A stretch of 64,000 nt of DNA, taken from positions 6,138,001-6,202,000 of the forward strand of contig NZ_CP107836.1 in assembly GCF_036346615.1 (NCBI RefSeq), written 5' to 3'. Below the pieces are notes generated by a model, which saw only the letters and a program-made list of their open reading frames with translations, searched no databases and had not been told where the DNA came from. This DNA comes from Streptomyces sp. NBC_00523. Its GTDB lineage: Bacteria > Actinomycetota > Actinomycetes > Streptomycetales > Streptomycetaceae. Positions 8,490 to 45,700 of the stretch are shown one piece after another; position 1 is the first letter of the stretch, and each line of letters begins with the position of its first letter. Both the position numbers and the translations under genes were made by a program.

Positions 8490-10034
8490 CCCGTCGCCCG
8501 GCGCCAGTGCCTGCACCTCGGCGTACGCAAGTGCCCCGCCCCGCACCGGTCCGCCGTCCCGGATCGCGGCCGCCGTGGACACGGCCCCGGTCAGCGCCTC
8601 GCGGTACAGCAGCGAGCCCAGGCTGACCCGGCGCACCCCCAGGGTGCCCAGCTCGGCGATGCCCGGTCCGGCCGGGTTGTACAGCACGTTCAGCGGGGTG
8701 ACGAGGGCGGCGGTCAGCGCGGCGATCCCCGCCCGGTCCGCAAGGCCCGGCACGAACACCCCGTCCGCCCCGGCCTGCTCGTAGACCGCGAGACGGCCGG
8801 CCGTCCGCTCCCGGTCGAGCCCCAGCCAGTACGTGTCCGTGCGGGCGTTGACGAACAGCCCGGGCGCGGCCTCCTTCACGGCGGCGATCTTCGCGGCGTG
8901 CAGCTCCACCGGGGCGAGGGTGCCGTCGGCCCGCCCGTCCTCCAGATTGATCCCCGCCGCCCCCGCCTCGTACAGCCGCCGCGCGAACACGGCGACCTCC
9001 GCCGGGTCGTCGCTGAACCCCCCTTCCGCGTCCACGCTGAACAGGAACGGCCCGCGCCCGAGCCGCCGGGCCAGGTCCACGGTCGCCTCCTTCGTCGCCG
9101 CGGCCCCGTCCGGCAGCCCCAGTCCCGCCGCCACGCCCAGGCTGGTGGTCCCCACCGCCCCGAACCCCTCGGCGGCCAGCGCGGCGGCCGACGCGTAGTC
9201 CCAGGCGTTGGGCAGCAGGAAGGCCCTCCCCTGGTGGTGGAGGCGGGCGAACGGGGTCATCGGCCGCCCGAGCAGCCCCTCCGTCAGCGCGAGGGCGTGC
9301 GCCCTGCCCGGGCAGACCCGGGGCGGCGCGCCGAAGGTGAGCGGGGCGGGGTGGCCCTGCTGGGCGGCCACCAGGTCGAGGGCCACCGCGTCGCCCTCGG
9401 CGATGTCCCGTCCGGCGATCCGGGTGGCCCGCGCGGCGACCCGGCGCATGACCCGCACCGGCGGATCGTCCCGCAGCACCCGGGCCGTCGGAGCCCCGGA
9501 CCCGGCCGCCACGACGGACCCGGCCAGCGCGGCGGTCGCGGCGCACGCCTGGGCCAGGAGCCCGATGCGGTTGGCGACGGCCTCCAGCCCGGCCTCGTCC
9601 ACCGGGCCCGGCGCGAGCAGGTCCACCAGCCGGGCGACGGCCCGGTCGGCCCCGGCCCTGCCGTCCTCGCCGAAGTACGCGTCCGCCACCACCGCCACCT
9701 CCCGGGCGACCCGCTCCGGCTCCGGCATGTCCAGGGCGGCGGCCAGGCCGCGCACCACCCGCGTCCGCGGATCGCCCTCCCCGGAAGCCGACGCCGAGGC
9801 CGCCCGGTGCAGATCGGCCGGGGCGAGCCGGGCGAGCTCGGCCTCCACGAGGGCCCGGCGCCGCCGGTGCGGCTCACCCGACGCGAACCTCGCCACCGTG
9901 GCCCGCAACCAGGCGACACTCGCGCCGGGCGGTCCTTCGAAGGGGCCGGGCCCCGGAGGGACGAGCGCGGGATCGGCGAGGGCCGCCAGGACCTCCGCGT
10001 ACTGACTGAACTCATGGGTGGTCGCGTGGCTCAT
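8451..10034 (-). CDS. P450-like N-terminal domain fused to isocitrate lyase/PEP mutase-family enzyme
   Basis: A 527-residue protein in two parts. Residues 1 to about 245 resemble the C-terminal half of a cytochrome P450: helical Ala/Arg-rich sequence ending in a haem-type loop FGAPPRVCPGRAHALAL with the Cys present, but without a full-length P450 body or a clear I-helix AGxxT motif. Residues about 255-527 form the isocitrate lyase/PEP mutase barrel, with the metal and substrate motifs FSVDAEGGFSDD, INLEDGR and VNARTDTYW. Family members cleave or form C-C or C-P bonds next to a carboxylate; the substrate here is unknown. The start is the ATG read from 10034; 25 codons upstream in frame overlap the divergent regulator's start region and were left out. 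It is divergent from a winged-helix regulator 65 bases away. Confidence 0.85.
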   Translation of the reverse strand: MSHATTHEFSQYAEVLAALADPALVPPGPGPFEGPPGASVAWLRATVARFASGEPHRRRRALVEAELARLAPADLHRAASASASGEGDPRTRVVRGLAAALDMPEPERVAREVAVVADAYFGEDGRAGADRAVARLVDLLAPGPVDEAGLEAVANRIGLLAQACAATAALAGSVVAAGSGAPTARVLRDDPPVRVMRRVAARATRIAGRDIAEGDAVALDLVAAQQGHPAPLTFGAPPRVCPGRAHALALTEGLLGRPMTPFARLHHQGRAFLLPNAWDYASAAALAAEGFGAVGTTSLGVAAGLGLPDGAAATKEATVDLARRLGRGPFLFSVDAEGGFSDDPAEVAVFARRLYEAGAAGINLEDGRADGTLAPVELHAAKIAAVKEAAPGLFVNARTDTYWLGLDRERTAGRLAVYEQAGADGVFVPGLADRAGIAALTAALVTPLNVLYNPAGPGIAELGTLGVRRVSLGSLLYREALTGAVSTAAAIRDGGPVRGGALAYAEVQALAPGDGSGGGGGDDVHDG

Positions 10035-10099
10035 GGCTCCGACCGTAGGCCCGGAACACTTCGGACCCCGCCGAACCGTCCCTGCGCCACCATGGAGGC

Positions 10100-10774
10100 A
10101 TGTCCTCACTCGCCGACACCGCCGCCCTCTTCGCCGACCGCACCCGCGCCGCCTTCTGCGAGGCGCTGCTCGACGGGCGGGCCTGGACGTCCGGCGAGCT
10201 CGCCCGGCACGTGGGCGTGAGCGCGTCCACCGCCAGCGAGCAGCTCTCCCGCCTCGTCTCCGGCGGGCTGCTGGCCGAGGAGCGCCAGGGGCGGCACCGC
10301 TATGTCCGGCTCGCGGGCCCGGAGGCGGCCGCGCTCACCGAGGCGCTCGCCGCGTACGCCCCCGGCACCTCCCGCCCGCGCACCCTGCGCGCCTCGGTCC
10401 GCCAGGACGCCGAGGCCCGGGCGCGCACCTGCTACGACCATCTGGCGGGGCGCCTCGGCGTGGCCCTGGCGGACGCGATGACCGCGCGCGGCCTGGTCGA
10501 CACCGGCTCCGGGATCGCCGTCACCCCGGCGGGCCGCACCTGGCTGACCGACACCCTGGACTACCGGCAGCCCGCAGGCGCCCGCCGCCCCCTCGTCCGC
10601 ACCTGCCTGGACTGGACCGAGCGTCGCTCCCACCTCGCCGGAGCCCTGGGCGCGGCGCTGTGCACGGCGGCCCTGGACCGCGGCTGGGTCCGGCGCGTCG
10701 GCTCGGGGCGCGCGGTGAAGGTGACGCCGGAGGGCAGCAGGGCGTTCGGGGAGCTGCTGGGGGTGGAGGCGTGA
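10100..10774 (+). CDS. ArsR-type winged-helix transcriptional regulator
   Basis: A 224-residue regulator. The N-terminal 80 residues form a winged helix: a helical start (ADTAALFADRTRAAFCEALL), the recognition part GELARHVGVSASTASEQLSRL and a wing EERQGRHRYVRL. The remaining 140 residues are a C-terminal domain with one Cys in ARTCYDH and another in VRTCLDW, longer than classic ArsR proteins (about 110). There is no CVC metal motif, so it is probably not a metal sensor. Its start is 65 bases from the divergent fusion gene, its most likely target. It ends 7 bases from the convergent GH20 gene. Confidence 0.88.
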   Translation: MSSLADTAALFADRTRAAFCEALLDGRAWTSGELARHVGVSASTASEQLSRLVSGGLLAEERQGRHRYVRLAGPEAAALTEALAAYAPGTSRPRTLRASVRQDAEARARTCYDHLAGRLGVALADAMTARGLVDTGSGIAVTPAGRTWLTDTLDYRQPAGARRPLVRTCLDWTERRSHLAGALGAALCTAALDRGWVRRVGSGRAVKVTPEGSRAFGELLGVEA

Positions 10775-10781
10775 GCCGCGC

Positions 10782-12344
10782 TCAGCGCCAGTCCACCTCC
10801 GTGGAGGCGAAGTAGGGCAGGCCCCGGTCGGCCCAGACGTGGCCGTGGTGGGCCAGGCGCTCGCGGTATTCGGCCCATTCCGGCGCCCGCCCGCACCAGG
10901 CCGCCTCCGCGACCGAGGCCAGCCGGGGCAGCAGGAGTACGGAGACGTCCTCGAAGCCCTTGAACCGCTCGGCGAAGACCGTGGCCTCCACGCCCGCCAC
11001 GTTCGCGTCCGGGATCGCGTAGGCGCCCGGGTCCCAGGCCGCCGTGTGCCGGACGCCCAGCGGGCGGTAGCCGTCGAAGCCGAGCCGGGCGGCCTCGGCG
11101 GCCTGCTCGGGCGGGGCGAACTCCGTTGCGTACGGGCGGTCCAGGTAGAGGTGCGACTGCGGGGAGAGCAGCACGCGCCCGCCGCCCTCGACGGTGCGGT
11201 GGAGGTCGTCGTCGGTGGGGGCGAAGAACTTCTTCAGCGCCGCGATGATCTCCATGGTCCGCCCCGCGGCCACGAGTTCGGGCCGGGCGGCCAGCTCCTC
11301 CGCCGTGTCCGGGAGGTCCATCATCTCCACGTCCACCCAGTACTGCGCGATGTCCCCGGGCTCGATCCCGGCGCGTGAGGACTCCTGCCAGGCCACCGGG
11401 CGCTTGCCCAGCGCGCGGACGAGCGCGCGCAGTTCGCGTACGGAGGCGTCGAAGCTCTCCGGCGTCGCGCCGAACGCCTCGTCGGCGCCGATGTGCACGT
11501 AGGGGCCGGTCGTCAGCGCGCAGACCTCGGTGAGGACGCGGGCGACGGCGGCGCGGGTCGCCTCATCGGTCAGGTCCAGCGGCGGTACGAACGGGAAGCG
11601 GTCCGCGAGCCCGGCCGGGGCGGGGGCCGGGGGCAGTCCGGGGACGGCGGCCCGGAGCGTCGCGCAGTGGCCCGGCAGGTCGATCTCGGGGACGACGGTG
11701 ACGAACCGCCGGGCCGCGTACTCCTGAAGCTCCCGGTACTCGGCCGCCGTGTAGAACTCCGCGCCCGGGGCCGTCAGCGCCGGGGTGCCGGGCAGTTCGA
11801 TGCGCCAGCCCTCGTTGTCGGTGAGGTGGAGGTGCAGGACGTTGAGCTTGTAGAGCGCGGCGAGGTCGATGATCCGGCGCACCTCGTCCGGGGTGAGGAA
11901 GCTGCGGGCCGGGTCGACCATGAGCCCGCGCCAGGCGTAGCGGGGGGCGTCCGCCAGGTCCTGGTACGGGAGTTGACCGGTGGCGATGAGCTGGAGGGCC
12001 GTCGTCGCGCCCCGGAACACCCCGGCCGGGGCGCGGCCGTGACAGGTGATGCCGTCGGCGTCCACGCGGAGCCGGTAGCCCTCGTCCACGGGGTCCGTGC
12101 CGCCGTCGGGGGAGACGCCGAGGGGTGGGGCGGACGCCGACTCGTCCAGTCCGAGGACCAGTTCCAGGGGTGCTCCGCCCGGCGCGTCCGGCAGATGCGG
12201 GGCGAGCAGCGCCCGTACGGTCTCCGCCACCTCCGCCAGCGCCGGATCGGCCGCCCGTACGTGCCAGGCGCAGGCGGCGGGCAGGGCGCCGGAGGGCGAG
12301 GACGGTCGGGCGTCGGCGTGCGGAATGACGGCGTTCACGGGCAT
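10782..12344 (-). CDS. GH20 beta-N-acetylhexosaminidase
   Basis: A 520-residue glycoside hydrolase. An N-terminal GH20b-like domain (about 1-140) is followed by the catalytic barrel beginning RYAWRGLMVDPARSF. The barrel shows LNVLHLHLTDNEGWRIE and the catalytic Asp-Glu pair in HIGADEAFG (about residue 295), the signature of substrate-assisted GH20 enzymes that remove terminal GlcNAc or GalNAc. No signal peptide is visible, so it is likely cytoplasmic and acts on imported chito-oligosaccharides. Its start (ATG at 12344) is divergent from the GH1 gene; the 213 bases between hold one copy of the regulon operator described at 12489-12514, 145 bases from this start. Confidence 0.93.
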   Translation of the reverse strand: MPVNAVIPHADARPSSPSGALPAACAWHVRAADPALAEVAETVRALLAPHLPDAPGGAPLELVLGLDESASAPPLGVSPDGGTDPVDEGYRLRVDADGITCHGRAPAGVFRGATTALQLIATGQLPYQDLADAPRYAWRGLMVDPARSFLTPDEVRRIIDLAALYKLNVLHLHLTDNEGWRIELPGTPALTAPGAEFYTAAEYRELQEYAARRFVTVVPEIDLPGHCATLRAAVPGLPPAPAPAGLADRFPFVPPLDLTDEATRAAVARVLTEVCALTTGPYVHIGADEAFGATPESFDASVRELRALVRALGKRPVAWQESSRAGIEPGDIAQYWVDVEMMDLPDTAEELAARPELVAAGRTMEIIAALKKFFAPTDDDLHRTVEGGGRVLLSPQSHLYLDRPYATEFAPPEQAAEAARLGFDGYRPLGVRHTAAWDPGAYAIPDANVAGVEATVFAERFKGFEDVSVLLLPRLASVAEAAWCGRAPEWAEYRERLAHHGHVWADRGLPYFASTEVDWR

Positions 12345-12488
12345 CTCCCTGAGGCGTACGCGGTGGGGGCCGGAGCGGCGGCGTCAGGTTCCGGCGGGTC
12401 CGGCCCCCAGGGCATTCGGCGCGGGCCCCGGGGTGAGACCGAACCGGCCGCCTCTTCTCCCGTACCGCTGCCACCTGTACGCTAACAC

Positions 12489-12514
12489 GAAAACCGATCA
12501 ATGAACGCTTTTTG
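12489..12514. promoter_or_regulatory. operator copy A of the glycosidase regulon
   Basis: An imperfect inverted repeat of the form GAAAACCG-N9-CGcTTTTtG, with ATCA just after the left arm. It matches two further sites at 18072-18096 (inverted) and 18178-18201. It lies 43 bases before the GH1 start and includes an upstream in-frame ATG (12501), which argues against translation starting there. The likely binder is the TetR regulator encoded after GH1 (inference). Confidence 0.8.
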
Positions 12515-12557
12515 CGGAGGGGGCGAACGGCCCGCCTCCGGGCGAAAGGAGAACCCG

Positions 12558-13853
12558 ATGGTGCACGAGGCCGGACCCGGTTTCGCCCTGCCGGAAGGCT
12601 TCCTCATGGGGGCGTCGACCTCGGCCCACCAAGTTGAGGGCAACAACGTCTCCAGCGACTGGTGGGCCCTGGAGAACCACCCCGAAAGCTTCGTCCAGGA
12701 GCCCAGCGGTGACGCGGCCGACAGCTTCCACCGATGGCCCGAGGACATGGACCTGCTGCGCGAACTCGGCTTCGACTCCTACCGCTTCAGCATCGAGTGG
12801 GCCCGCGTCGAGCCGGAGCGCGGCCGGATCTCGCGCGCCGCCCTCGCGCACTACCGGGCCATGGTGCGCGGCGCGCTGGAACGCGGGCTGACCCCGGTCG
12901 TGACCCTCCACCACTTCACCTCGCCCCAGTGGTTCAGCGAGCTCGGCGGCTGGACGGCCCCCGGCGCGGACGAGCTGTTCGCGGCGTACGCGCGCACCTG
13001 CGCCGGCATCCTGCGCAAGGGCGTCCGCCATGTCGCCACCATCAACGAGCCCAACATCATGGCCCTGATGTACGCGCTCAAGCGGCACGCGGCCGAGCAC
13101 GGCTGGGAGAGCGTCGCGCACGGGGCGAACGCCGCCCGCGAGGCCGGGGCCGCCGCCGTCGACCCGGCCTCCTTCGTCCCGGACCCCGAGGTCATCCGAG
13201 CCCTGATCGGCGCCCACCGGGCCGCCACCGCCGCGCTGAAGGAGACCGTGCCCGGTGTCCAGGTCGGCTGGACCGTGGCCAACCAGGTCTACCAGCCCGA
13301 GCCGGGCTGCGAGTCCGCCGCGGCCGCCTACGCCCGGCCCCGCGAGGACGTCTTCCTGGAGGCCGCCCGCGAGGACGACTGGATCGGCGTCCAGGCGTAC
13401 ACCCGGCACCGCATCGGCCCCGACGGCACCCTGCCCCCGCCCCCGGGCGCCGAACTGACGCTCACCGGCTGGGAGTTCTACCCCGAGGCGCTCGGGGAAG
13501 CGGTGCGGCACACGGCGGAGGTCGTCGGCCCGCACGTGCCCATCCTGGTCACCGAGAACGGCATCGCCACGGACGACGACGAGCGCCGCATCGCCTACAC
13601 CACCCGCGCCCTGGTGAGCCTCGCCGAGGCGATGGCCGACGGCGTCGACGTACGCGGCTATCTGCACTGGAGCGCCCTCGACAACTACGAGTGGGGGAGC
13701 TACCGGCCGACGTTCGGGCTGATCGCGGTCGACCGCGACACCTTCGCCCGGACGCCCAAGGAGTCGGCGCGCCGGCTGGGCGCCCTGTCCCGGGACCGGC
13801 GGCTGCCCGCCGGGGCCCCGCTCGGGTCGGTGACCGCACCCTCCTCGCGTTAG
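12558..13853 (+). CDS. GH1 beta-glycosidase
   Basis: A 431-residue glycoside hydrolase family 1 enzyme, normal length. The N-terminal FLMGASTSAHQVEG is typical; the acid/base Glu is in TINEPN (about residue 172) and the nucleophile Glu in LVTENGIA (about 334). The aglycone-side motif HWSALDNYEW is also present. It has no signal peptide and would cleave imported beta-glucosides or related sugars in the cytoplasm. The start is the ATG at 12558, with GAAAGGAG six bases before it; an earlier ATG at 12501 falls inside operator A and is rejected. The TetR gene follows ten bases after the stop, so enzyme and regulator are in one transcript. Confidence 0.94.
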   Translation: MVHEAGPGFALPEGFLMGASTSAHQVEGNNVSSDWWALENHPESFVQEPSGDAADSFHRWPEDMDLLRELGFDSYRFSIEWARVEPERGRISRAALAHYRAMVRGALERGLTPVVTLHHFTSPQWFSELGGWTAPGADELFAAYARTCAGILRKGVRHVATINEPNIMALMYALKRHAAEHGWESVAHGANAAREAGAAAVDPASFVPDPEVIRALIGAHRAATAALKETVPGVQVGWTVANQVYQPEPGCESAAAAYARPREDVFLEAAREDDWIGVQAYTRHRIGPDGTLPPPPGAELTLTGWEFYPEALGEAVRHTAEVVGPHVPILVTENGIATDDDERRIAYTTRALVSLAEAMADGVDVRGYLHWSALDNYEWGSYRPTFGLIAVDRDTFARTPKESARRLGALSRDRRLPAGAPLGSVTAPSSR

Positions 13854-13863
13854 GGTGACCGGC

Positions 13864-14451
13864 ATGGCGAAACGGGGCCCGTACGAGAAGGGCGAGGCCA
13901 AGCGCAGCGAGATCCTGCACGCGGCTCTGGAGATCTTTGCCGCCGAGGGGTACCGGGGTACCTCCCTGCGGAAGGTGGCGGCGAAGTGCAGCCTCAGCCT
14001 GCCCGGTCTGATGCACTACTTCGACTCCAAGGAGGACCTGCTCACCCAGGTCCTGCGGATGCGTGACGAGACCGCGCGGGTGCGGCAGGCGGAGCGCTCC
14101 GATCCGCACGGCTACCGCGAGATCATCCGGGAGGGCGCGAAGACCCCCGGCCTGGTCGAGCTGTTCGTCTCGATGGCCGCCGCCGCCAGCGACCCGGCCC
14201 ACCCCGCCCACGCCCACTTCGCCGAGCGCTACCCGGTGGTGCGCGAACGCGTCGCCGACTTCGTCCGGGAGGGCGTCGCGGAGGGGCGGATCAGCTCCGC
14301 GATCCCCCCGGAGCGGCTGGCCGTGCTCCTGGTCGCCGTGGCCGACGGCATCCAGCTGCAATGGCTGATCGACCGCTCCACGGACATGGAGCAGCCCATC
14401 GAGGACCTGCTCGCCGTTCTCGACCCGCGTCCGGCGCCGGAAGGGGCCTGA
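13864..14451 (+). CDS. TetR-family regulator, probable controller of the glycosidase regulon
   Basis: A 195-residue TetR regulator. The DNA-binding domain (about 10-55) reads SEILHAALEIFAAEGY, TSLRKVAAKCSLSLPGLMHYF, DSKEDLL. The C-terminal helical domain would bind a small ligand. It is co-transcribed with GH1, and three similar inverted repeats lie before GH1, GH3 and the SGNH esterase; two of them fit between the -35 and -10 boxes, as expected for a repressor. I infer that it represses this set until a sugar signal arrives. A GTG at 13855 is an alternative start. A strong 14-base-pair hairpin just after the stop ends the transcript. Confidence 0.9.
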   Translation: MAKRGPYEKGEAKRSEILHAALEIFAAEGYRGTSLRKVAAKCSLSLPGLMHYFDSKEDLLTQVLRMRDETARVRQAERSDPHGYREIIREGAKTPGLVELFVSMAAAASDPAHPAHAHFAERYPVVRERVADFVREGVAEGRISSAIPPERLAVLLVAVADGIQLQWLIDRSTDMEQPIEDLLAVLDPRPAPEGA

Positions 14452-14457
14452 GCAGCA

Positions 14458-14491
14458 CTGAAGGGGCGGCGCCCGCGCGCCGCCCCTTCAG
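14458..14491. terminator. bidirectional terminator hairpin
   Basis: A perfect 14-base-pair stem (CTGAAGGGGCGGCG with its complement) and a 6-base loop between the convergent TetR and beta-lactamase-like genes. CGTTTCCC follows on the plus strand. Confidence 0.85.
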
Positions 14492-14506
14492 CGTTTCCCG
14501 TACGGG

Positions 14507-15682
14507 TCAGAGCGCCGCCGCCGTCGCGGTCACCGCCTCCGTCCAGTCCGTCCAGCGCGGATCGGTTCCGGCCGCGGGCTCCCAGGCCATCGCCGTGCAC
14601 ACGTACCCCACGGCGAGACCGCTGCGGGGGTCGGCCATGCCCAGCCGTCCGCCCGCCCCCGCGTGCCCGAACGCGCCCTCGCCCAGCATCGGCAGCCCCT
14701 TCCGGGGCAGCTCGAAGCCGAGCCCGAAGCGGGACCGGCCCGCGGGGTCCCCGCCGTCGAGCGGGGGCGGGGGCGGCACGTCGTCGCGCGGGGCGACCGC
14801 CCGTTCCAGCGTCGCCGGGGACAGCAGCCGCACCCCGTCCACCGGGCCGATCAGCGCCGCGTACATCCGGGACAGCGACCGGGCGTTGCCGATCCCGCCG
14901 GCGCCGGGCAGCTCGGCCGCACGGCCCTCGCGGGTCGCGAGACCGCGGACCGCCGCCGCCACCTCCGCCTGCGACGCCCGGAGCGCCGTCGAGAGCGGCG
15001 CGTCCGGGGCGAGCCCCAGCCCTGCGAGGAATCCGGCGACCTGCTCCGGCGAGGGATCGGGGCGTACGGAGAACTGCGGGGCGAACCGGTGCTCCTCCTC
15101 CACCGGCAGCCCGATCCACAGGTCGAGCCCCAGGGGCCCCGCCACCTCGTCGGCGAAGAACGCGCCGACGCTCCGCCCGCTCACCCGCCGCACCACCTCG
15201 CCGACCAGGTGGCCGTACGTCAGCGCGTGGTACAGGCACGCCGTGCCCGGCTCCCACACCGGCCGCATCGCCGCCAGGGCGCCCAGCAGGGCCTCCCGGT
15301 CGAACAGCCCGGGCAGCCCGCACCCCGCCGGATCGGCCGAGAACGCGGGCAGCCCGGCCCGGTGCGTGAGGAGGTCGGCCACCGTCGTCCCGGCCTTCCC
15401 CGCGGCGGCGAACTCCGGCCAGTAGCGGGCCACGGGCGCGTCCAGATCCAGGGCGCCCCGCTCGCTCAGCAGATGGGCGCAGACCGCGACGAGGCCCTTG
15501 GTCACGGACATCAGCACGCCGACCGAATCGGTCCCGAAGTCCGGCGGTCCGGAGGCCAGATCGACCACCGGGCGCCCGTGGTGGTGGACGGCCAGCTGCG
15601 CGGCGCCGGGGTCGTCGGCGCAGCCGCGTACGAAGGCGTCGCGGACGGGCTCCCAGCCGGGCGCCACCCGGCCGGTGACCAT
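14507..15682 (-). CDS. beta-lactamase-like serine hydrolase (class C / esterase EstB type)
   Basis: A 391-residue protein of the beta-lactamase superfamily. The active-site SxxK motif is SVTK (about residue 59), and a Tyr motif is in YHALTYGHLVG (about 150). The downstream HAGAGGRLG segment occupies the place of the KTG box, giving HAG, which is typical of esterases and peptidases of this group rather than true beta-lactamases. There is no signal peptide, so it is cytoplasmic. It starts one base after the stop of the GH3 gene and is surely co-transcribed with it, so a role in deacylating a glycoside or its aglycone is possible. The true substrate is unknown. Confidence 0.9.
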   Translation of the reverse strand: MVTGRVAPGWEPVRDAFVRGCADDPGAAQLAVHHHGRPVVDLASGPPDFGTDSVGVLMSVTKGLVAVCAHLLSERGALDLDAPVARYWPEFAAAGKAGTTVADLLTHRAGLPAFSADPAGCGLPGLFDREALLGALAAMRPVWEPGTACLYHALTYGHLVGEVVRRVSGRSVGAFFADEVAGPLGLDLWIGLPVEEEHRFAPQFSVRPDPSPEQVAGFLAGLGLAPDAPLSTALRASQAEVAAAVRGLATREGRAAELPGAGGIGNARSLSRMYAALIGPVDGVRLLSPATLERAVAPRDDVPPPPPLDGGDPAGRSRFGLGFELPRKGLPMLGEGAFGHAGAGGRLGMADPRSGLAVGYVCTAMAWEPAAGTDPRWTDWTEAVTATAAAL

Positions 15683-15683
15683 C

Positions 15684-17978
15684 TCAGCCCTCCCGCTGTT
15701 CCGAGCGCGCCTCCACCTCGTCCGCCAGGGCGGGCAGGCTCTCGGGGGACAGCGGGCTCTGCGGGAACTCGCAGATCACGTCGAGCGGCACACCGGCGAG
15801 GAACCGCAGCATCATGGGATCGGCGAGCGCGCTCGCGGACTCGTCCGTACGGGCCTTCGCGAACGCCTCCATCAGCAGCGGACCGCCCACCGGGTGCTCG
15901 AACCACTCGGCGAGGGTGTTCCGGCCGGTCAGCCGCAGCCCCGAGGGGTCGCCCGCCACCTCAATCTCCACCCCGGCGCGGAGGTCGCGCGAGGAGGCAC
16001 CGGCCTCGAAGCGGTAGCGGCCGCCCTCGACCTTCCAGCCGCCCTCCCGTTCGCTGAAGTACGCCAGATCGTGCCGTGCCACGCGGACCGCCACCTCGGC
16101 GCTCGCGCCCGGCTCCAGGGACACCGAGGCGAAGCCCCGCAGTTCGCGCACCGGCCGCAGGACGCGTGAACCTTCCGGCCCGCCCACGTACAGCTGCACG
16201 ATCTCGCGCCCGGCGACCGTGCCGGTGTTGGTGACGGTCAGCGTGACGAGGAAGCCGTCCCCGTCCTCCCGTACGGTCAGGCCCGCGTAGCCGAACGTCG
16301 TGTACGACAGGCCGTGGCCGAACGGGAACGCGACCTCGCGGCGCTGCGCGTCGTACCCCCGGTACCCGACGAAGATCCCCTCGCCGTACCGGGCCCGGCC
16401 CTCCTCGCCGGGGAACGAGAGGTGGCTCGGGGAGTCCTCCAGGCGCAGCGGGACGGTCTCCGTCAGCTTCCCGGACGGGTTGACCGCGCCGAACAGGACG
16501 CGGGCGAGCGCGCCGCCGCCCGCCTGGCCGAGCAGCCACCCCTCCACGAGCGCGGGCACCCGGTCCTGCCAGGGCACGGTGCGGACCACGCCGCCGTTGG
16601 ACAGCACCACGACCGCGCGCGGGTTGACGTCCAGGACCCGCCGCAGCAGCTCGGTCTGGGCGGCGGGCAGGTCCAGGTGGTCGCGGTCGAAGCCCTCGGA
16701 CTCGTCCTGCGCCGGGAGGCCGAGGAACAGCACCGCCGTGTCCGACGACTCCGCCAGCCGCACCGCCTCCTCGGCCAGTTCGGCGTCCGACGGCCCGTCC
16801 TCCGCGCCCGGCAGCGCGTACCCGGCGGCGAACCGCACCTCCGCGCCCGTCGCCAGCTCGCGCAGGCTGTCCAACGGGACGTCGAGCCGGGTCGGGGTGA
16901 CCTGCGAGCTGCCCGCGCCCTGGAAGCGGGGCGTACGGGCGAACTCGCCGATGACCGCCAGGCTGCCGCGCGCCGGGTCCAGCGGCAGCAGCGCGTCGTC
17001 GTTCTTCAGGAGCACCACGCACTGGTCGGCGGCCCGCCCGGCGACGCGGTGCGAGGCGTCCGCGTCGAAGGTGGCGGGCGCCCCGGTGCCGCCGGTCGCG
17101 CGGTCGGCGAAGAGGGCGAGGCGTTCCACGGTCCGGTCGAGCACCGCCTCGTCCAGCGCGCCGGACTCCACGGCGGCGGCCACCTCGCGGTCCGTGTGCC
17201 CGCCGGGGCCCGGCATCTGGAGGTCGAGGCCGGCGCGGAGGGCGGCGACCCGGTCGCGTACCGCGCCCCAGTCGGAGACGACGATCCCGTCGAAGTCCCA
17301 CTCGTCGCGCAGGATCTCGGTGAGCAGGCGGGTGTGCTGCGCCACGGGCACGCCGTTGACGCCGTTGTAGGAGGCCATGACGGACCAGGGGTTGTCGCGG
17401 CGGACGACGCGCTCGAAGGCGCGCAGATAGATCTCGCGCAGCGGGCGCTCGTCGATGTCGGCGCTCACCCGCATCCGGTCGGTCTCCTGGTTGTTGGCCG
17501 CGTAGTGCTTGAGCGAGGCCCCGACCCCGGCGTTCTGGAGACCGCGCACCATCGCGCCGCCCAGCTCCGACGAGACCAGCGGGTCCTCGGAGAAGTACTC
17601 GAAGTTCCGGCCGCACAGCGGTGACCGCTTGATGTTGATGCCCGGCCCCAGCACCACGTGCACACCGTGCGCCACGGCCTCGGCCGCGATGGCGGCGGCG
17701 ACCTCCTCGGCCAGTTCCGGATTCCAGCTGCTGCCGAGGGCGACGGCGGGCGGGAAGCAGGTGGCCGGCGCCGCGCTGTGCAGGTCGAGCTGGCCGCCGT
17801 CGCCGGTCTCCCGGGGCAGCCGCAGCCCGTGCGGGCCGTCGGACATCCGGACGGCGGGCAGCCCCGCCGCCTCGGACCCCTCGCTGACGAAGTCCCCGGA
17901 ACCGCTGGTCAGGGCGGCCTTCTCGGCGAGCGGGAGGGCGGTGGCGGGGGAGGGGCGGGGAGTGGATCGCTGAGTCAT
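15684..17978 (-). CDS. GH3 beta-glucosidase with fibronectin-III-like C-terminus
   Basis: A 764-residue GH3 enzyme. The N-terminal barrel carries the substrate motif KHYAANNQE and the nucleophile Asp in GIVVSDWGAV (about residue 240). The second alpha/beta domain has GAGSSQVTP, and the C-terminal Fn3-like domain has GREIVQLYVGG and FASVSLEPG, the standard three-part layout of bacterial beta-glucosidases. No signal peptide is seen. The start is taken as the ATG read from 17978; a longer frame to 18104 would run over the promoter and operator. A TTGACA / TACGTT promoter with operator B between the boxes lies about 100 bases upstream. Confidence 0.93.
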   Translation of the reverse strand: MTQRSTPRPSPATALPLAEKAALTSGSGDFVSEGSEAAGLPAVRMSDGPHGLRLPRETGDGGQLDLHSAAPATCFPPAVALGSSWNPELAEEVAAAIAAEAVAHGVHVVLGPGINIKRSPLCGRNFEYFSEDPLVSSELGGAMVRGLQNAGVGASLKHYAANNQETDRMRVSADIDERPLREIYLRAFERVVRRDNPWSVMASYNGVNGVPVAQHTRLLTEILRDEWDFDGIVVSDWGAVRDRVAALRAGLDLQMPGPGGHTDREVAAAVESGALDEAVLDRTVERLALFADRATGGTGAPATFDADASHRVAGRAADQCVVLLKNDDALLPLDPARGSLAVIGEFARTPRFQGAGSSQVTPTRLDVPLDSLRELATGAEVRFAAGYALPGAEDGPSDAELAEEAVRLAESSDTAVLFLGLPAQDESEGFDRDHLDLPAAQTELLRRVLDVNPRAVVVLSNGGVVRTVPWQDRVPALVEGWLLGQAGGGALARVLFGAVNPSGKLTETVPLRLEDSPSHLSFPGEEGRARYGEGIFVGYRGYDAQRREVAFPFGHGLSYTTFGYAGLTVREDGDGFLVTLTVTNTGTVAGREIVQLYVGGPEGSRVLRPVRELRGFASVSLEPGASAEVAVRVARHDLAYFSEREGGWKVEGGRYRFEAGASSRDLRAGVEIEVAGDPSGLRLTGRNTLAEWFEHPVGGPLLMEAFAKARTDESASALADPMMLRFLAGVPLDVICEFPQSPLSPESLPALADEVEARSEQREG

Positions 17979-18071
17979 ACGAATACCTGTCGGGCTTCCG
18001 TGAGGGGGGCGGGGCGAGGGGCGGGCCGTGGCCGTCCGGCGGAGCGAATCGGGGCAAGACGGCATGCGACC

Positions 18072-18096
18072 CAAAAACGTATGGTGATCGGTTTTC
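18072..18096. promoter_or_regulatory. operator copy B of the glycosidase regulon
   Basis: Read on the minus strand it is GAAAACCG-ATCACCATA-CGTTTTTG, sharing the left arm and ATCA with copies A and C. It fills the spacer and -10 box of the GH3 promoter, a position that would block RNA polymerase. Confidence 0.85.
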
Positions 18097-18104
18097 AGTG
18101 TCAA
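18076..18104 (-). promoter_or_regulatory. promoter of the GH3 operon
   Basis: On the minus strand, a consensus TTGACA -35 box (18104-18099), a 17-base spacer and a TACGTT -10 box (18081-18076), about 98 bases from the GH3 start. Operator B overlaps the spacer and the -10 box. Confidence 0.75.
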
Positions 18105-18167
18105 GGGTCCCCGCGCGCGGCGTGCGGGACCTCCTCGACCCGCCGGATTTCATTTCGGACGCGACTC

Positions 18168-18197
18168 TTGACGGCTAGAAACCGATCACCGTACGGT
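18168..18197 (+). promoter_or_regulatory. promoter of the SGNH esterase gene
   Basis: TTGACG (18168-18173), an 18-base spacer and TACGGT (18192-18197). Operator C covers the spacer and -10 box, as at the GH3 promoter. The leader to the ATG is about 100 bases. Confidence 0.7.
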
Positions 18198-18201
18198 TTT
18201 C
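18178..18201. promoter_or_regulatory. operator copy C of the glycosidase regulon
   Basis: The cleanest of the three copies: GAAACCG-ATCACCGTA-CGGTTTTC. Its two arms are nearly perfect inverted repeats around a 9-base centre, as expected for a dimeric TetR protein. Confidence 0.85.
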
Positions 18202-18303: not shown

Positions 18304-19224
18304 ATGTCGGTATCCGGTCGGTCGACCACCCCCGCGCTCCGAGAGGCGGACCACCCGGCCCGCGCCCCGCGTCTGGCCCTCGCGGCGGCGGCGGCCGTCG
18401 CCCTGCTGGCGGCCGCCGCGACCCCCGGCGTCGCCGCCCCGGCCGCTCCGGCGTCCGGCGAGCCCGTCCGGTACGTGGCGCTCGGCGACTCGTACAGCTC
18501 CGGGCTCGGCATCCCGCAGCAGACCGACACCGTCTGCGGCCGCTCCGACCGCAACTACCCCTCGCTCGTGGCCGCCGCGGTGGGCGCCGCGTCGTTCGCC
18601 GACGTCACCTGCGCCGGGGCCGACACCACCCACATGGCGGGACCCCAGGACACCGTGGCGCCCCAGCTCGACGCGCTGCGCCCCGACACCACCCTGGTCA
18701 CCCTCGGGATCGGCGGCAACGACCTCGACCTGGCCGGGGTCATCACCCGGTGCGTTCTGGTCGGCTACCTCGCCCCGCACGGCTCGCCCTGCAAGAGCAG
18801 CTTCACCCTGTTCGGCACGGACGAGATCGGCTCCCGGATCAACGCCACCGCGCCGAAGCTCGACGCGGTGCTCGACGCGATCCGCGCCCGCTCGCCGCAG
18901 GCCCGGGTCCTCGTCGTCGGCTACCCGTCGCTGATGCCCGACGACGGCAGCTCCTGCCGCGCCACGGTCCCGCTCGCCGAAGGCGACTTCGGCTGGGTCC
19001 GGGACAAGGAGAAGCAGCTCGACGCGATGATGGCGCAACGGGCCGGGACGCGCGGCGCGGGGTACGTCGACACCTACGGCCCGTCCGTCGGGCACGACGC
19101 CTGCCAGGCCGCGGGGGTGCGCTGGATCGAACCGGCCGACTCGGCCGAGGGCGCCGGCTTCCACCCGAACGCCTCCGGACACAGGAGCACGGCCGATGCC
19201 GTCCTCGCCGCCCTCGGTCACTGA
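18304..19224 (+). CDS. secreted SGNH/GDSL esterase
   Basis: A 306-residue exported hydrolase. The N-terminus has a charged stretch (to about residue 20), a long Ala-rich hydrophobic core (about 21-42) and a likely signal peptidase site near ATPGVAAPA. The SGNH blocks are present: the nucleophile Ser in ALGDSYSSG (block I), Gly in the region of block II (CAGADTT), Asn in GIGGNDLDL (block III) and the Asp/His-like block V GFHPNASGH. Six or so Cys residues suggest disulfides, as in the Streptomyces lipases of this group. Its promoter carries the same operator as GH1 and GH3, so it is likely induced with them, perhaps removing acyl groups from plant polymers (inference). Confidence 0.92.
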   Translation: MSVSGRSTTPALREADHPARAPRLALAAAAAVALLAAAATPGVAAPAAPASGEPVRYVALGDSYSSGLGIPQQTDTVCGRSDRNYPSLVAAAVGAASFADVTCAGADTTHMAGPQDTVAPQLDALRPDTTLVTLGIGGNDLDLAGVITRCVLVGYLAPHGSPCKSSFTLFGTDEIGSRINATAPKLDAVLDAIRARSPQARVLVVGYPSLMPDDGSSCRATVPLAEGDFGWVRDKEKQLDAMMAQRAGTRGAGYVDTYGPSVGHDACQAAGVRWIEPADSAEGAGFHPNASGHRSTADAVLAALGH

Positions 19225-19228
19225 CGCC

Positions 19229-19861
19229 TCAGCCCCGCCCCTCCGCCGCCACGCCGCAGCGGCGGAGGAAGGCGCGGACCTGCTCCGCCATGTCGACCGC
19301 GTCCGGGTCGAGGAGCCACTGCGTCTGGAGCCCGTCCATCAGGGCCAGCAGCTGCTGCGCCACGGCGGCCGGGTCCTCCCGGACGCCGCCCGCCGCGAAC
19401 AGCTCCGCCAGCAGGCCGGTCAGCTCGCGGCGCAGGACCTGGTAGCGCCGTACGAAGTATCCGTGGGCGGGGTGGTCCGGATCGGACGCCTCCGCCGACA
19501 GCTTCGCGTACAGCGCGACCAGGCCCGGCGTCCGGGCGTTGCGGTCGACCACGCCGAGCAGCAGGCGCAGCCGCTCGGCGGGCTCCGGCTCCGGTTCGCC
19601 CGGGTCCAGCACGGTGGGGAAGAGGCGGCGCGCGTCCAGCTCGTCGCGGCGGCTCAGCACGTCCAGGAGCAGGGCCTCCTTGCCGGGGAAGTGGTGCAGC
19701 ACCCCGGCGTGGGTGAGCCCGGCATGGGCGGCGATGTCGCGCAGCGAGACCGCGAGGAAACCGGAGCGGGCGAACAGCTCGGCCGCGGATTCCAGGATGC
19801 GGGCGCGGGTGCGCTCGCCCTTCGACAGCCGCCGGGGCGCCTCGGGCGCGGTCTCGGTCAC
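19229..19861 (-). CDS. TetR-family regulator of the peptide ABC operon
   Basis: A 210-residue TetR protein. The helix-turn-helix (about 14-60) reads RARILESAAELFARSGF, VSLRDIAAHAGLTHAGVLHHF, GKEALLL. The C-terminal ligand domain is typical in length. It is divergent from the peptide-binding lipoprotein gene, and two 18-base direct repeats lie between them, close to its own start, so it probably represses both directions. Its stop is four bases from the convergent esterase stop. The start ATG is at 19861. Confidence 0.92.
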   Translation of the reverse strand: MTETAPEAPRRLSKGERTRARILESAAELFARSGFLAVSLRDIAAHAGLTHAGVLHHFPGKEALLLDVLSRRDELDARRLFPTVLDPGEPEPEPAERLRLLLGVVDRNARTPGLVALYAKLSAEASDPDHPAHGYFVRRYQVLRRELTGLLAELFAAGGVREDPAAVAQQLLALMDGLQTQWLLDPDAVDMAEQVRAFLRRCGVAAEGRG

Positions 19862-19901
19862 TTCGGTCTCCTGCCGCGATCGGGTCTCGTCCAGCAGAAC
19901 T

Positions 19902-19951
19902 TACCGGCTGGTTAATTCCACCGAGCAAAAACCTACCAAGTGGTTAATTCC
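19902..19951. promoter_or_regulatory. pair of direct-repeat operators for the divergent TetR
   Basis: Two 18-base repeats, 19902-19919 and 19934-19951, of the form TACC-N3-TGGTTAATTCC, 32 bases apart (about three helix turns). Each contains a small dyad ACC-N4-GGT, a common core of TetR sites. Their place between the TetR gene and the ABC operon suggests autoregulation and control of the importer. Confidence 0.8.
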
Positions 19952-39487: not shown

Positions 39488-39703
39488 TCAGGCGTACTGG
39501 GCGACCAGGCTGCGGGGGCGGATGTCGGTCCAGTGCGCGGTGATGTACTCCAGGGCCTCGGAGCGGTTACCGGGCCCCCAGACACCTTCCCAGCCTGCCG
39601 GGATGTCGGCGAAGGCCGGCCACAGGGAGTGCTGTCCCTCGTCGTTCACCACGACGTGGAAGGAGCCCTCGGCGTCGTCGAAGGGGTTCGCGATGTCGCT
39701 CAT
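39488..39703 (-). CDS. MbtH-like protein
   Basis: A 71-residue MbtH protein, typical length. The signature is intact: [40 protein letters not shown], with the three conserved Trp residues. MbtH proteins bind A domains and are needed for their folding or activity. Its ATG overlaps the stop of the last NRPS gene (ATGA), so it is made with it. The free-standing and trans-acting A domains in this cluster are likely clients. Confidence 0.95.
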
Positions 39704-42700
39704 GAATAACTCCTCGTTTCGTTTTCCCGCAGGCTGTTTTCCTGCAGTGCAGAGATTTTCTCCGCGATGACTTTTCCGATGTGTGCGAGCGGTTCTTCCT
39801 CGGCCATCCGGAGATGCGTGGAATTCACGGTGTGGTTCTCGACCCGGCCCGTCAGATAAGCATTCCAGGTGGCGGCCAGTGCGCCTTCCGGTTCGCCGGG
39901 CCTGCGGGCGGTGAAGAACACCGCGCCGGTGTCCGCGACCTCGGGCACGTGCCGCGCCATGAGGGCCGCATGGGTCTCGGAGGCCCGCTGCACCGCCCGG
40001 ATCTCCTCGGCGCTGAAGCCTTCGAGCACCGGGTCCGCCGCCTCCGGCAGCGCGTCCTCGTCGGGCGCCGCATCCGGCTCCCGCGCCGGCAGCACGGACA
40101 CGCTGCCCGGCCCGGTCTGGTGGACATCCATCAGCGCGAGCAGTTCGACGCGCTGACCGGCCGCGCGGAGCCGGACGGCCATGGTGTGGGCGACGATCCC
40201 GCCGAAGGACCAGCCGAGCAGCCGGTACGGGCCCCAGGGCTGGACCTGCCGGACGCGTTCCAGGTAGTCGTCGGCCATCTCCTCGACGGAGCGCGGGAGA
40301 TGGCCCGGCTCGCTCAGCGCGCGGGCCTGGAGGGCGTACAGCGGCTGGTCCTCCCCGAGGTGCCGGGCCAGGCCCGCGTACGACCAGCCGACCCCGGTCC
40401 CCGGGTGTACGCAGAACAGCGGGCGCCGGGTGCCCCGGGTGTTCAGCGGCAGCAGGACGCCCATCGCACCGGCCGTGCCGTCCGGGTCCTGCGCACCGAG
40501 CAGCCCGGCCGGGGTCGGGGCGCGGAACAGATCGCGGACCGTCCGGTCGATGCCGAGGACCGAGCGCACCCGGCTCACCAGGCGCACACCGAGCAGCGAA
40601 TGCCCGCCCAGCGTGAAGAAGTTGTCGTCCAGACCGACCCGGGGCGCGCCCAGGATCTCGGCGAACAGCCCGCACAGCACCTCCTCCCTGGCGTTGCGCG
40701 GCGCCCGGTACCCGACGGCGGTCCGGTCCGGCGCGGGCAGCGCCCGGCGGTCCGGCTTCCCGTTCACGGTCAGCGGCACGGCGTCCAGGACGACGACCGC
40801 CGACGGCACCAGATGGGCGGGCAGCGCGGTACGGGCCAGGGCGAGGACGTCCGCCCCGGCGACCTCGGACCCGGCGCGCGGCACCACGTACCCGACGAGG
40901 GTCCGCTCGCCCGGCCGGTCCTCGCGCACGACGGCGAGGGCCTGGCCGACCGAGGGGTGCGCGGCGAGCGCGTGCTCCACCTCGCCCGGCTCGATCCGCA
41001 CCCCGCGCAGCTTGACCTGGCCGTCCGCCCGCCCCAGGAACCGCAGTTCGCCCTCCGGCGTCCAGACGACCCGGTCACCGGTGCGGTACATCCGGCTGCC
41101 GTCCGCCTCGAACGGGTCGGGGACGAACCGCTCGGCGGTCAGGTCCGGGCGGCCGGTGTACCCGCGCGCCACATGCGTACCGGCGATGTACAGCTCACCG
41201 GGCACCCCCGGCGGCACCGGCCGCAGCGCCGCGTCCAGAACGTGGCTGCGGGTGTTGTCCATGGGCCGGCCCAGATGCAGCCCGGCCGCGCCGAGCGAGC
41301 CCCGGCCGCCGGTGAGCCACTGGTTGTGCGAGGCGAACGTCGTCTCGGTGGGGCCGTAGGAGTGGACGAGGGCGGTGTCCGGGCAGTGCGTCAGGACCCG
41401 TTGCACGGCGGTGGGCGAGGCGACGTCGCCGCCCGTCCACACCTCGCGCAGCAGCCGCAGCGTGTCCAGCGCCTCATCGGCCATCACATGGAACAGGCCG
41501 ACGGTGAAGTAGGCGACGGTGACGCCGTGTTCGCGGACGGCGCGGGCGGTCTCCGCGAGGTCGGTGCCGTCGCCGCGCATGACGACCAGGCTGCCGCCGT
41601 TGAGGAGCGGCACCCACATCTCGAACACCGAGGCGTCGAAACCGGTCGCGGAGTGGACCAGCATCCGGTGGGGACCGCCGGCGGTGGTGTCGCGGTCCGC
41701 GGCCAGCTCCGTCACATTGCGGTGGGTGACGCCGACGCCCTTCGGGCGGCCGGTGGACCCGGACGTGAACATCACGTACATCAGGTCGTCCCCGTCGACC
41801 GCCACGGCCTCGCGGTCCGCAGGCGGGGTGCCCTCGGCGGGCGCGTCGGTCAGGAGGACCGGTACGGAGACCTCCTCCGGCACCACGGCCGCCTGCCCGG
41901 TGTCCGTCGCGATCAGGCGCACATCCGCGTCCTGGACCATCAGCGCGATCCGCGCCCCGGGCAGGGCCGGGTCCAACGGTACGTACGCGGCACCGCACTT
42001 GAGGGCGGCGAGCGCGGTCACCACCAGCGGGACACCGCGTTCCAGCAGGACCCCGACGGTGTCGCCCCTGCGCACCCCGGCCGCGAACAGCCGGGCGGCC
42101 AGCGCGTCGGCCCGGGCGTCGAGCTCGGCGTAACCGACGGTCTCCGCGTCGGTGATCAGCGCGGGCGCCTCCGGCGTGAGCGAGGCCCGGCGGGCGATGA
42201 CCTCGTGGACGGGGGCCCGGTCGCGGGTCGCGGTGGCCGTGTCGTTGTACTCCGCGACCAGCCGGAACCGCTCGGCCTCGGTGAGCAGGCCCACCGCCCC
42301 GATCCGTACCCCCGGATCGGCGGCGACGGTGCGCAGCAGACGCCCGATGTGGGCGGCGATCAGGTCGGCGGTGGCGGCGTCGAACAGGTCGGTGGCGTAT
42401 TCGAGCCCACCCGCCAGACCGGCCGGCCGCCCCGCCTCGTCCTTCCGCTCCCACAGGGCGAGGGTGAGGTCGAACTTGGTGGACAGCGTTTCCAGCGGCG
42501 CCGGTTCGGCCCGGAGCAGCGGCCCCTCGGAGCGGTCGGCCGTGTAGTCGTGGTGCAGCTGGACGACGAACTGGGCCAGCGGGTGGTGGGCGGTGGAGCG
42601 GGCCGGGTTGAGGTGTTCCACGATCCGGTCGAAGGGAAGCCGCTGATGTGCGTAGGCCGCGAGATCCGTGTCGCGCACCCGCCCCAGCAGCTCGCCGAAC

Positions 42701-45700
42701 TCCGGGTCACCCGACGTGTCGGTGCGCAGGACCAGCGTGTTGACGAAGAAGCCGACCAGATCGCTCAGCGCCTCGTCGTCGCGCCCGGCCGTCATGGTGG
42801 CCAGCGGCAGATCGGTGCCTGCCCCGTGCCGGGTGAGGACGGCGGCGAGCGCGGCCTGCAGCACCATGAAGAGCGTCGCGCCGTGGCGCCGGGCCAGCTC
42901 CTCCAGGGCCTCGTGCGTGGCCGCGTCGACGGCGAGCGGCGCGTGGCCGCCCCGGTGGGTGGCCTCGGCGGGGCGGGGCTTGGCGGCGGGCAGTTCGAGG
43001 ACGGGCGGCGCCCCGGCGAGGGCGCGTTCCCAGAAGGCGAGATGGTCATGCGCCGCCGGTCCGTCGAGAAGTTCCTGCTGCCAGAGCGTGTAGTCGGCGT
43101 ACTGGACGGGAAGCGGCGCCCAGTCCGGTGCGTGGCCCTCGGCGCGGGCGGCGTAGGCGGCGCCCAGGTCCGCGAGCAGCGGCCCCGTCGACCAGCCGTC
43201 GGCCGCGATGTGGTGGACGAGCACGACGAGCACCTGACCGCCGCCGTCGTCCGGGGTGAGCAGGGCGGCCCGCAGCGGGAGTTCCCCGGCGAGGTCGAAG
43301 ACATGCCCGGCCGCCGAGGCGACCGCCGCCCGGAACCGCCCGGCCGGCACCGTCCGTACGTCGAGCACGGGCCGGGCGTCCGCCACGATCGCCTGGTACG
43401 GCTCCCCGTCCACCGACGGATAGCGGGTCCGCAGCACCTCGTGGCGCTCCACCAGATCGGCCAGGGCACGGCCGAGGACCTCGGCGTCCAGCGGCTCCGC
43501 CGGACGCAGCACCAGCGGGATGTTGTACGAGGCGCTGGGACCTTCCAGCGCGTCGATGAACCAGAGCCGGTGCTGCGCCCGGGACAGCGGCAGGCGCTCC
43601 GGCCGCTCCGTGCGGCGGACCAGCGCGGGCCCCTCGTCGCCGGTGGCCCGGTGTTCCGCGATGCGGCGGGCCAGGGCGGCCGGGGTCGGGGCGAGCAGCA
43701 GGTCCCGGACGTGGACGTCGACGCCCAGGCGGGCCCTGATCCGGTTGGCGAGCCGCACCCCGCTCATCGAGTGGCCGCCGATGGTGAAGAACCCCTCGTC
43801 CGGGCCGACCTCGTCCAGCCCCAGGATCTCCGCGAACATCTCCCGCAGGGTGTCCAGGTGTTCCGCGTCCGGTGCGCCGCCCGCCCGGGCCGCCTCGGCG
43901 TCGGCGGCCTGCCGGGCGGCGAGGGCCGCGACGCGCTCACGGCGGCCGGCGAGGGCCAGGCGCTCCTCGTCGCCCAGCAGCCCGGAGTCGGCGACGGGCG
44001 CCCCGGGCCGCTCGGCAGCCGTACGCAGGGCGCGTTCCAGGGCGCCCAGGAGGAGGCGGGCGGTGTCCTCGTCGAGGACGTCACGCGCGTACTCCAGGCC
44101 GAGTTCGAGCCCGGCGGGGGAGCCGTCGGAGGTGCGGTGCTCCACGCAGGCGGCGGTCAGGTCGAACTTGGTGGTCGCGGGGCCCTCCGCCCGGAAGCGG
44201 CCGGTGAGCGCGCCGAACGCGAAGGGGGCGTCGTCCGGGGCGGCCGTGCGCAGGGTGAGCATCGTCTGGAAGAGCGGGTGCACCCCGGGCGTGCGCGGCG
44301 GGTTCAGATGCTCCACCAGCAGGTCGAAGGGGAGGCCCTGGTGCTCGTAGGCGGCGAGGTCCGTGTCGCGTACCCGCTCCAGCAACTCGGCGAACGCCGG
44401 GTCACCCGAGGTGTCGGTCGGCAGGACCAGCGTGTTGACGAAGAAGCCGACGAGCGCGCCCAGCGCCTCGTCGTCCCGCCCCGCCACCGGCGTCCCCACG
44501 GCCACCCGCTCCCCGCAGCCCGCCGCCCGCAGCGCGAGGGCCAGCGCGGCCTGGATCACCATCAGCATGCTCGCGCCGTGCGCGTCGGCCAGCCCGGCGA
44601 GCCGGGCGTGCGCGGCCGGATCGAGGCGCGTGGCGACCACGCCGCCCCGGTGGTCCGGCACCGCCGGGCGCGGCCGGTCCAGCGGCAGATCGGTCACGGC
44701 CGGCAGCCCGTCCAGCGCGGCGCGCCAGTGGGCGAGCCCGCGCGCGACGGCGGAGTCCGGGTCGTCAGCCGTACCGAGGACGTCGTGCTGCCACAGGGTG
44801 TAGTCGGCGTACTGGACGGGAAGGGGCTCCTGCTCCGGCGCCCGCCCCTGTGCACGGGCGGTGTACGCGGCGGCCAGGTCGTTCATCAGCGGCGCCAGCG
44901 ACCAGCCGTCGCCCGCCACATGGTGCAGCAGCACCGCCAGCACCGCCTCCGGACCCTCGTCCCCCTCGGGCACGAACAGCGCCACCCGCAGCGGCAGTTC
45001 CCGCGCCAGGTCGAACGTCTCGGACACGAAGTCCTGGACCCGATCCCGCAGTTCACCGGCCGGGCACTCGACCGTACGCGCCCGCACCGCCGACGCGGCC
45101 AGCACATGCTGGTACGGCTCGTCCTCCGGGGCCAGGAACACGGTCCGCAGCACCTCGTGCCGCTCGGCGAGATCCGCGACGGCGGCGGCCAGCGCCGCCC
45201 GGTCGGGCACCCCGTCCAGCTCCAGCACGATCGGCATGTTGTACGCGCAGGACGGCCCGTCCAGCTGATCCAGCAGCCACAGCCGGCGCTGCGCGTGCGA
45301 CAGCGGCACCCGGTCCTCGGCGGGCAACGGCTCCTCGTGGACGACCGAAAGACGGGGGTCCGTGGTCCGCAGCACCTTGCGGTTGATCTTCCCCGAGCTG
45401 GTACGGGGCAGCGCGGCGACGATACCGACGGCGGCGGGCACGGCGGCGGCGGGCATCCGCTCGCGCACCAGGCCGCGCAGTTCCTCGGCCCCCACCCCGC
45501 CCTCGGTGACGACGAACGCGACGAGCCGCTTGACCCCGTCCGCGTCCTGCTGGGCGACGACGGCGGCCTCCCGGACCTTCGGGTGCGAGGACAGGACCGA
45601 GTCGACGGCGGCGGGGTCGATGCGCTGCCCGCCGATCTTCACCTCGTCGTCCAGCCGCCCGTGGTACAGGATCTGCCGGTCCTCGCCGATCGTGACGAGG

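Follow-up and report, generated by a model that had tools for sequence, protein, structure and literature searches.

TetR1, a TetR-type protein encoded at a single locus of a Streptomyces chromosome (G000, 7.53 Mb), is very likely a local, autoregulated and substrate-induced repressor that controls the uptake and degradation of a glycoside, and would act through three similar inverted repeats (O1 to O3) that lie before glycosidase and lipase genes of the same locus. This reading was reached by sequence comparison, which shows where the sites lie, how they register with the promoters, that they are restricted to one locus and that they are inherited together with TetR1. Coordinates refer to the window, the whole 64,000-nucleotide stretch of DNA that was analysed.

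Results

The genes and elements of the locus are collected in Table 1. AAAGGAG stands ahead of the GH1 start, and the beta-lactamase-fold gene behind GH3 belongs to the same operon as GH3. The SGNH protein begins with a stretch that resembles an export signal by eye. The second regulator gene, TetR2, and a gene for a family-5 solute-binding protein (start probably at 20018) point away from each other; the latter is followed by ABC transporter genes named by eye. Elsewhere in the window, an open frame at 39700-46803 (2367 aa) resembles, by eye, a non-ribosomal peptide synthetase and falls outside the regulon finding. A third TetR of the TetR1 subgroup (42% identity to TetR1) is encoded in the same genome at locus L012 (G000:C1:6946980-6950516), divergent from another GH3 gene and ahead of a gene for a CBM25 protein.

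Table 1. Genes, proposed operators and candidate promoter elements of the TetR1 locus.
Feature	Coordinates	Strand	Basis
GH20, beta-N-acetylhexosaminidase family, divergent from GH1	10782..12344	-	PF00728
TACGCTA, candidate shared -10 (TACGCT for GH1 on +, TAGCGT for GH20 on -)	12478..12484	.	conservation
Proposed operator O1 (AAAACCGATCAATGAACGCTTTT), between divergent GH20 and GH1-TetR1	12490..12512	+	before GH1 in window and 25 loci
GH1 beta-glucosidase, SGR_2426-like	12558..13853	+	PF00232; best PDB match 8kap SGR_2426
TetR1, proposed repressor, gene 2 of GH1 operon	13864..14451	+	PF00440; model pLDDT 86; operator co-occurrence
Beta-lactamase-fold serine hydrolase, 1-bp gap behind GH3	14507..15682	-	PF00144
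GH3 glycosidase	15684..17978	-	PF00933, PF01915, PF14310; PDB 5wab
Proposed operator O2 (AAAACCGATCACCATACGTTTTT), over GH3 promoter spacer and -10	18073..18095	-	before GH3 in window and 19 loci
-10 TACGTT of GH3, within O2	18076..18081	-	17 bp from -35
-35 TTGACA of GH3	18099..18104	-	TTGAC or TCGAC at same register in GH3 loci
-35 TTGACG of SGNH	18168..18173	+	conserved among aligned SGNH loci
Proposed operator O3 (GAAACCGATCACCGTACGGTTTT), over SGNH promoter spacer and -10	18178..18200	+	before SGNH in window and 22 loci
-10 TACGGT of SGNH, within O3	18192..18197	+	18 bp from -35
SGNH/GDSL lipase-esterase	18304..19224	+	PF13472; PDB 4hyq phospholipase A1, 5mal lipase
TetR2, TetR1 paralogue (36% identity)	19229..19861	-	sequence comparison
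Candidate TetR2 operator AACCACTTGGTAGGTTT, between TetR2 and family-5 solute-binding protein gene	19929..19945	-	only genome match at <=2 mismatches

TetR1 is 99% identical to its counterpart in Streptomyces sp. CB01249, and its N-terminus matches the TetR_N helix-turn-helix family PF00440 with 49.9 bits (cut-off 24). The predicted structure is an all-helical two-domain fold of nine helices, and nearly all of the top PDB matches listed for it are TetR-type regulators. Ligands of the nearest folds are very different and include acyl-CoA, uracil and drugs; the predicted fold was unusable for assigning a class of inducer.

The initial annotation described near-identical inverted repeats of the form GAAAACCG-N9-CGGTTTTC before GH1-TetR, GH3 and the SGNH gene. 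All three are present (12489-12513 on the plus strand, 18072-18096 best read on the minus strand, and 18177-18201 on the plus strand), but they are similar rather than near-identical, each with two mismatches to that pattern. At up to three mismatches the window holds three matches against 0.05 expected, and none of 100 shuffles reached three. The nine central bases cannot be kept as a free spacer. Read over all classes, for example in GH1-class sites (CCGATCAATGAACG) and in the dyad found in Agreia (AAAACCGTTCACTGTACGGGTTA), they are themselves conserved and partly symmetric, and they form part of the motif. Read across all site classes, the ideal element is a 23-bp dyad, AAAACCGwTCA-n-TGwwCGGTTTT.

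Further copies spread widely before unrelated genes had been named as an observation that would count against a regulon, and a genome search returned none of that sort: the motif is confined to the locus. With the pattern of the initial annotation at up to two mismatches, the whole genome yielded O1-O3 and one unrelated place. AAACCGATCANNNNACGNTTTT, made of the letters common to O1-O3, returned exactly these three at zero mismatches, nothing at one or two, and at three mismatches only two unrelated places and the reverse reading of O1, against one match for a reversed-pattern control. The 12 other TetR1-bearing Streptomyces genomes, each scanned entire, gave the same picture, with 36 of 36 near-matches at the TetR1 locus, up to about 11.5 kb from TetR1, and no match to the reversed-pattern control. 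One of these genomes, G116, is fragmented, and two of its three near-matches lie on a short contig that carries GH3.

The presence of the motif follows that of the regulator. TetR1 occurs at 69% identity or more in 13 of 199 Streptomyces genomes, a line set after the list of identities was known, with the lower matches of G110 and G023 counted among the other 186. Exact AAACCG-N9-CGGTTT was found in 12 of the 13 genomes with TetR1 and, among the remaining 186, in 10 (Fisher p 1.4e-12, from genomes that are not independent of one another), and the thirteenth (G161) carries four sites with one or two mismatches at its TetR1 locus. Together with the dyads that precede distant TetR genes (see below), this co-occurrence supports the proposal that the TetR encoded after GH1 is the probable binder, and sequence by itself could hardly make the pairing of TetR1 with the operator firmer.

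The comparison was widened to 40 loci named around TetR1 relatives, of which 39 were examined (L098 was left out) along with the window and a further pair of loci that are more distant. Sites are present in 32 of the 42 sequences. A class alignment of 87 sites was hand-picked from matches with up to four mismatches, without reciprocal-strand readings and the lone four-mismatch matches at L089 5044 and L096 9628, and comprises 26 sites before GH1, 20 before GH3, 23 before SGNH, eight before solute-binding protein genes and 10 in other places. Conservation was measured for GH1, GH3 and SGNH in thinned sets of 20, 16 and 19 loci, respectively, which exclude near-identical relatives, loci lacking the gene and, for GH1, L082. 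The mean majority-base frequency was 0.95, 0.90 and 0.92 in the site columns, as compared to 0.65, 0.48 and 0.47 over the upstream bases -60 to -13, and 0.49, 0.51 and 0.55 downstream. Conservation (0.82-0.92) extends to the 12 bases just 5' of the site, where the -35 or part of TACGCTA lies. In other species genes for solute-binding proteins or MFS transporters carry a TetR1-type site; the window's own solute-binding protein gene has none. At one further site (L070, position 5052), a second divergent gene was sought and no convincing frame was found. A sulfatase gene lies directly ahead of GH20, near ABC genes, in L108 (3865-7164, minus) and L076 (16415-19716); in L108 a single open frame (1099 codons) spans both, perhaps because they are fused or because a stop was lost.

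The operator also accompanies the regulator outside Streptomyces, including into Actinomadura. In Agreia (three loci), Rathayibacter and Bailinhaonella most of the window genes are absent, the dyad lies directly ahead of the gene for the TetR1 homologue, and the site stands beside MFS, GH3 or GH2 genes. Locus L111, whose TetR is 44% identical, has a perfect 23-bp dyad, AAAACAGTACG-T-CGTACTGTTTT, directly before the TetR gene, with length and register unchanged and two letters in each half differing from the AAAACCGTACA half of Rathayibacter and Bailinhaonella. No clear site was detected at the TetR1 homologues of Arthrobacter and Paeniglutamicibacter (seven loci, 47-50% identity) or at L110. 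By eye, ACC-N11-GGT occupies the same position ahead of Arthrobacter-type TetR genes in six of seven loci, where such scores are common by chance. We considered L097 from Mangrovactinospora as a counter-example, its helix-turn-helix being 78% identical with no site present, and rejected it: the TetR frame is broken and its C-terminus unrelated. What stands there (about 9955-10180) is a remnant of TetR1, broken near its start, with no operator in the 20 kb examined; the sites apparently disappeared along with the regulator.

The promoters that the initial annotation had proposed for GH3 (TTGACA-17-TACGTT) and SGNH (TTGACG-18-TACGGT) were found in the sequence as claimed, and the coordinates agree that O2 and O3 cover the spacer and the -10. 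Among the aligned loci, the TTGAC -35 and the in-site -10 keep their register at GH3, SGNH and solute-binding protein sites with few exceptions. O1 overlaps no -10 and sits just downstream of the conserved TACGCTA. TACGCT is exact on the plus strand in 23 of 26 sequences, and CTA, read as TAnnnT on the minus strand, is kept in all 23 loci with a divergent GH20 and replaced by CTG in the three without. This suggests that TACGCTA is a -10 common to GH1 and GH20, and because CTA is kept where GH20 is divergent we place GH20 under O1 as well. In the aligned loci, neither a good -35 for GH1 nor a -35 at normal spacing for GH20 was found. The earlier notion of a glycosidase-esterase regulon is supported for GH1, GH3 and SGNH but was too small, as GH20 and the beta-lactamase-fold gene also lie under the sites.

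The centres of O2 and O3 are 105 bp apart (ten helical turns), and 101-105 bp apart in most relatives. Over nine distinct spacings in 20 loci, helical phasing is a weak trend (Rayleigh about 0.09, permutation 0.054), and we do not claim it as a feature.

TetR2, a paralogue of TetR1, adjoins SGNH and is retained in the majority of Streptomyces loci, and either this protein or both TetRs could in principle bind O1-O3. A different motif, AACCANNTGGTAGGTTT, unique in the genome, however precedes TetR2, exactly or with small changes, in 19 of 20 loci by eye (it is missing in L093). Its recognition stretch (THAGVLHHF) differs from that of TetR1 (SLPGLMHYF), and sites of the O1-O3 type occur without TetR2 in the examined stretch, e.g. 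in L068, L077, L080, L083-L087 and L095. As TetR2 appears to have an operator of its own, we set it aside as the binder of O1-O3, a role that we regard as quite improbable. Between TetR2 and the family-5 solute-binding protein gene, the window contains two TetR2-type dyads within 19901-19945, TTACCGGCTGGTTAA and AAACCTACCAAGTGGTT, which are seen in most orthologous loci.

The overlap of the element with a fixed -35/-10 register at GH3, SGNH and solute-binding protein genes would also be expected of a promoter class read by an alternative sigma factor, with no operator involved. Such a register is lacking at GH1 and ahead of the distant TetR genes, both arms are kept as an inverted repeat that is perfect in L111, and the element is restricted to one locus, which together make this the least credible reading, with hardly any chance of being correct. 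The weak -35 of GH1 and the absence of a -10 overlap at O1 would suit TetR1 as an activator, or as a repressor at O2 and O3 that activates at the GH1 promoter. A site downstream of the -10 nevertheless fits a roadblock and not activation, and most studied TetR proteins are repressors according to a survey (PMC3511530); we consider activation a distinctly unlikely role.

Discussion

We favour repression by TetR1, and infer its binding, repression and induction as follows. A TetR1 dimer, or a pair of dimers, would occupy the 23-bp dyad at O1, O2 and O3. At O2 and O3 it would cover the spacer and -10 and block RNA polymerase at GH3, with its beta-lactamase-fold partner, and at SGNH; at O1 it would sit just downstream of the -10 common to GH20 and GH1-TetR1. 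Since a site lies at the GH1-TetR1 promoter, TetR1 would be autoregulated. A glycoside or a breakdown product would release the protein. The SGNH lipase would then deacylate the substrate outside the cell, uptake would proceed via the neighbouring family-5 ABC transporter (under TetR2) or another transporter, and GH1, GH3 and GH20 would split off sugars inside the cell.

The enzymes give some indication of the substrate. SGR_2426, to which GH1 is nearest, is reported to be a beta-1,2-glucosidase whose Gln229 has to do with specificity and whose Trp291 has to do with recognition (PMC12369401). The equivalents of Asn228, Gln229 and Trp291 are kept in 27 of 27 GH1 sequences, and the hydrophobic position 171 is Ile in eight and Met in 19. 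In the alignment, the relative 4r27, which we take to act on ginsenosides, is without the equivalents of Gln229 and Trp291. Because GH1 keeps these beta-1,2-glucosidase residues, our tentative guess, which has perhaps some chance of being right, is a beta-1,2-linked, sophorosyl-type and possibly acylated glycoside. A decorated, perhaps acylated substrate may be indicated by the exported-looking lipase, by GH20 and by the sulfatase genes that some species have; GH20 and the lipase fail to single out one substrate. The nearest NCBIfam model for GH3, exo-alpha-(1->6)-L-arabinopyranosidase (NF041610), scored 855.7 bits, below its cut-off of 1300. In a more speculative extension, which we hold to be rather doubtful, the TetR pair would split one uptake-degradation system, TetR1 (AAAACCGwTCA) governing the enzymes and TetR2 (AAACCTACCA) the transporter, with species swapping the binding-protein gene between the two operators, and the substrate would be an acylated beta-1,2-linked (sophorosyl) glycoside, e.g. 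a saponin from plants or a glycolipid from yeast, handled by an undescribed pathway.

The proposed mechanism, a TetR repressor of glycosidase genes that is released by the substrate, is of a known kind. UidR/GusR of Escherichia coli provides TetR-type control of glycosidase and transport genes as proposed for TetR1, has operators ahead of a glycosidase gene like O1 and O2, and responds to a glycoside inducer (PMC9881133). Unlike UidR/GusR, the TetR1 system would have three operators and four transcription units including GH1, GH3, GH20 and the lipase, and the TetR1 gene comes second in the GH1 operon. UidR (6ayi) matches residues 11-162 of TetR1 (E 3.1e-8), a weak match among many similar TetR matches. 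A survey of Streptomyces TetR proteins (Ahn, Cuthbertson and Nodwell 2012, PMC3511530) describes action on adjacent genes, as proposed here; it rests on divergent neighbours within 200 bp, whereas TetR1 is co-oriented within an operon and would reach genes at distances of up to about 4 kb. The beta-1,2-glucan cluster of SGR_2426 in Streptomyces griseus shares with the window the GH1 subgroup, the Gln and Trp of the +1 subsite, and a nearby ABC transporter and esterase, but comprises a Lin1841-related oligosaccharide ABC system and a GH193 glucanase, in place of which the window has a lipase, GH3, GH20 and a binding protein of family 5. The paper on that cluster nowhere uses the word TetR (PMC12369401). 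A literature search conducted mostly outside subscription journals found no description of a TetR1-type regulator, TetR proteins linked to tomatinase or saponins included. The TetR1 regulator, its operator, the gene set and the two-TetR arrangement appear to be new.

For an uncharacterised regulator, the analysis supplies an operator of defined sequence, a closed set of genes and a few candidate inducers to try. TetR1 and its clean 23-bp operator covering the -10 could serve as a control part in Streptomyces, and the paralogues TetR1 and TetR2, with their diverged half-sites, offer a natural case in which to study how duplicated repressors cease to cross-talk. Identifying the substrate would add to the glycoside pathways of actinobacteria that live in soil or with plants.
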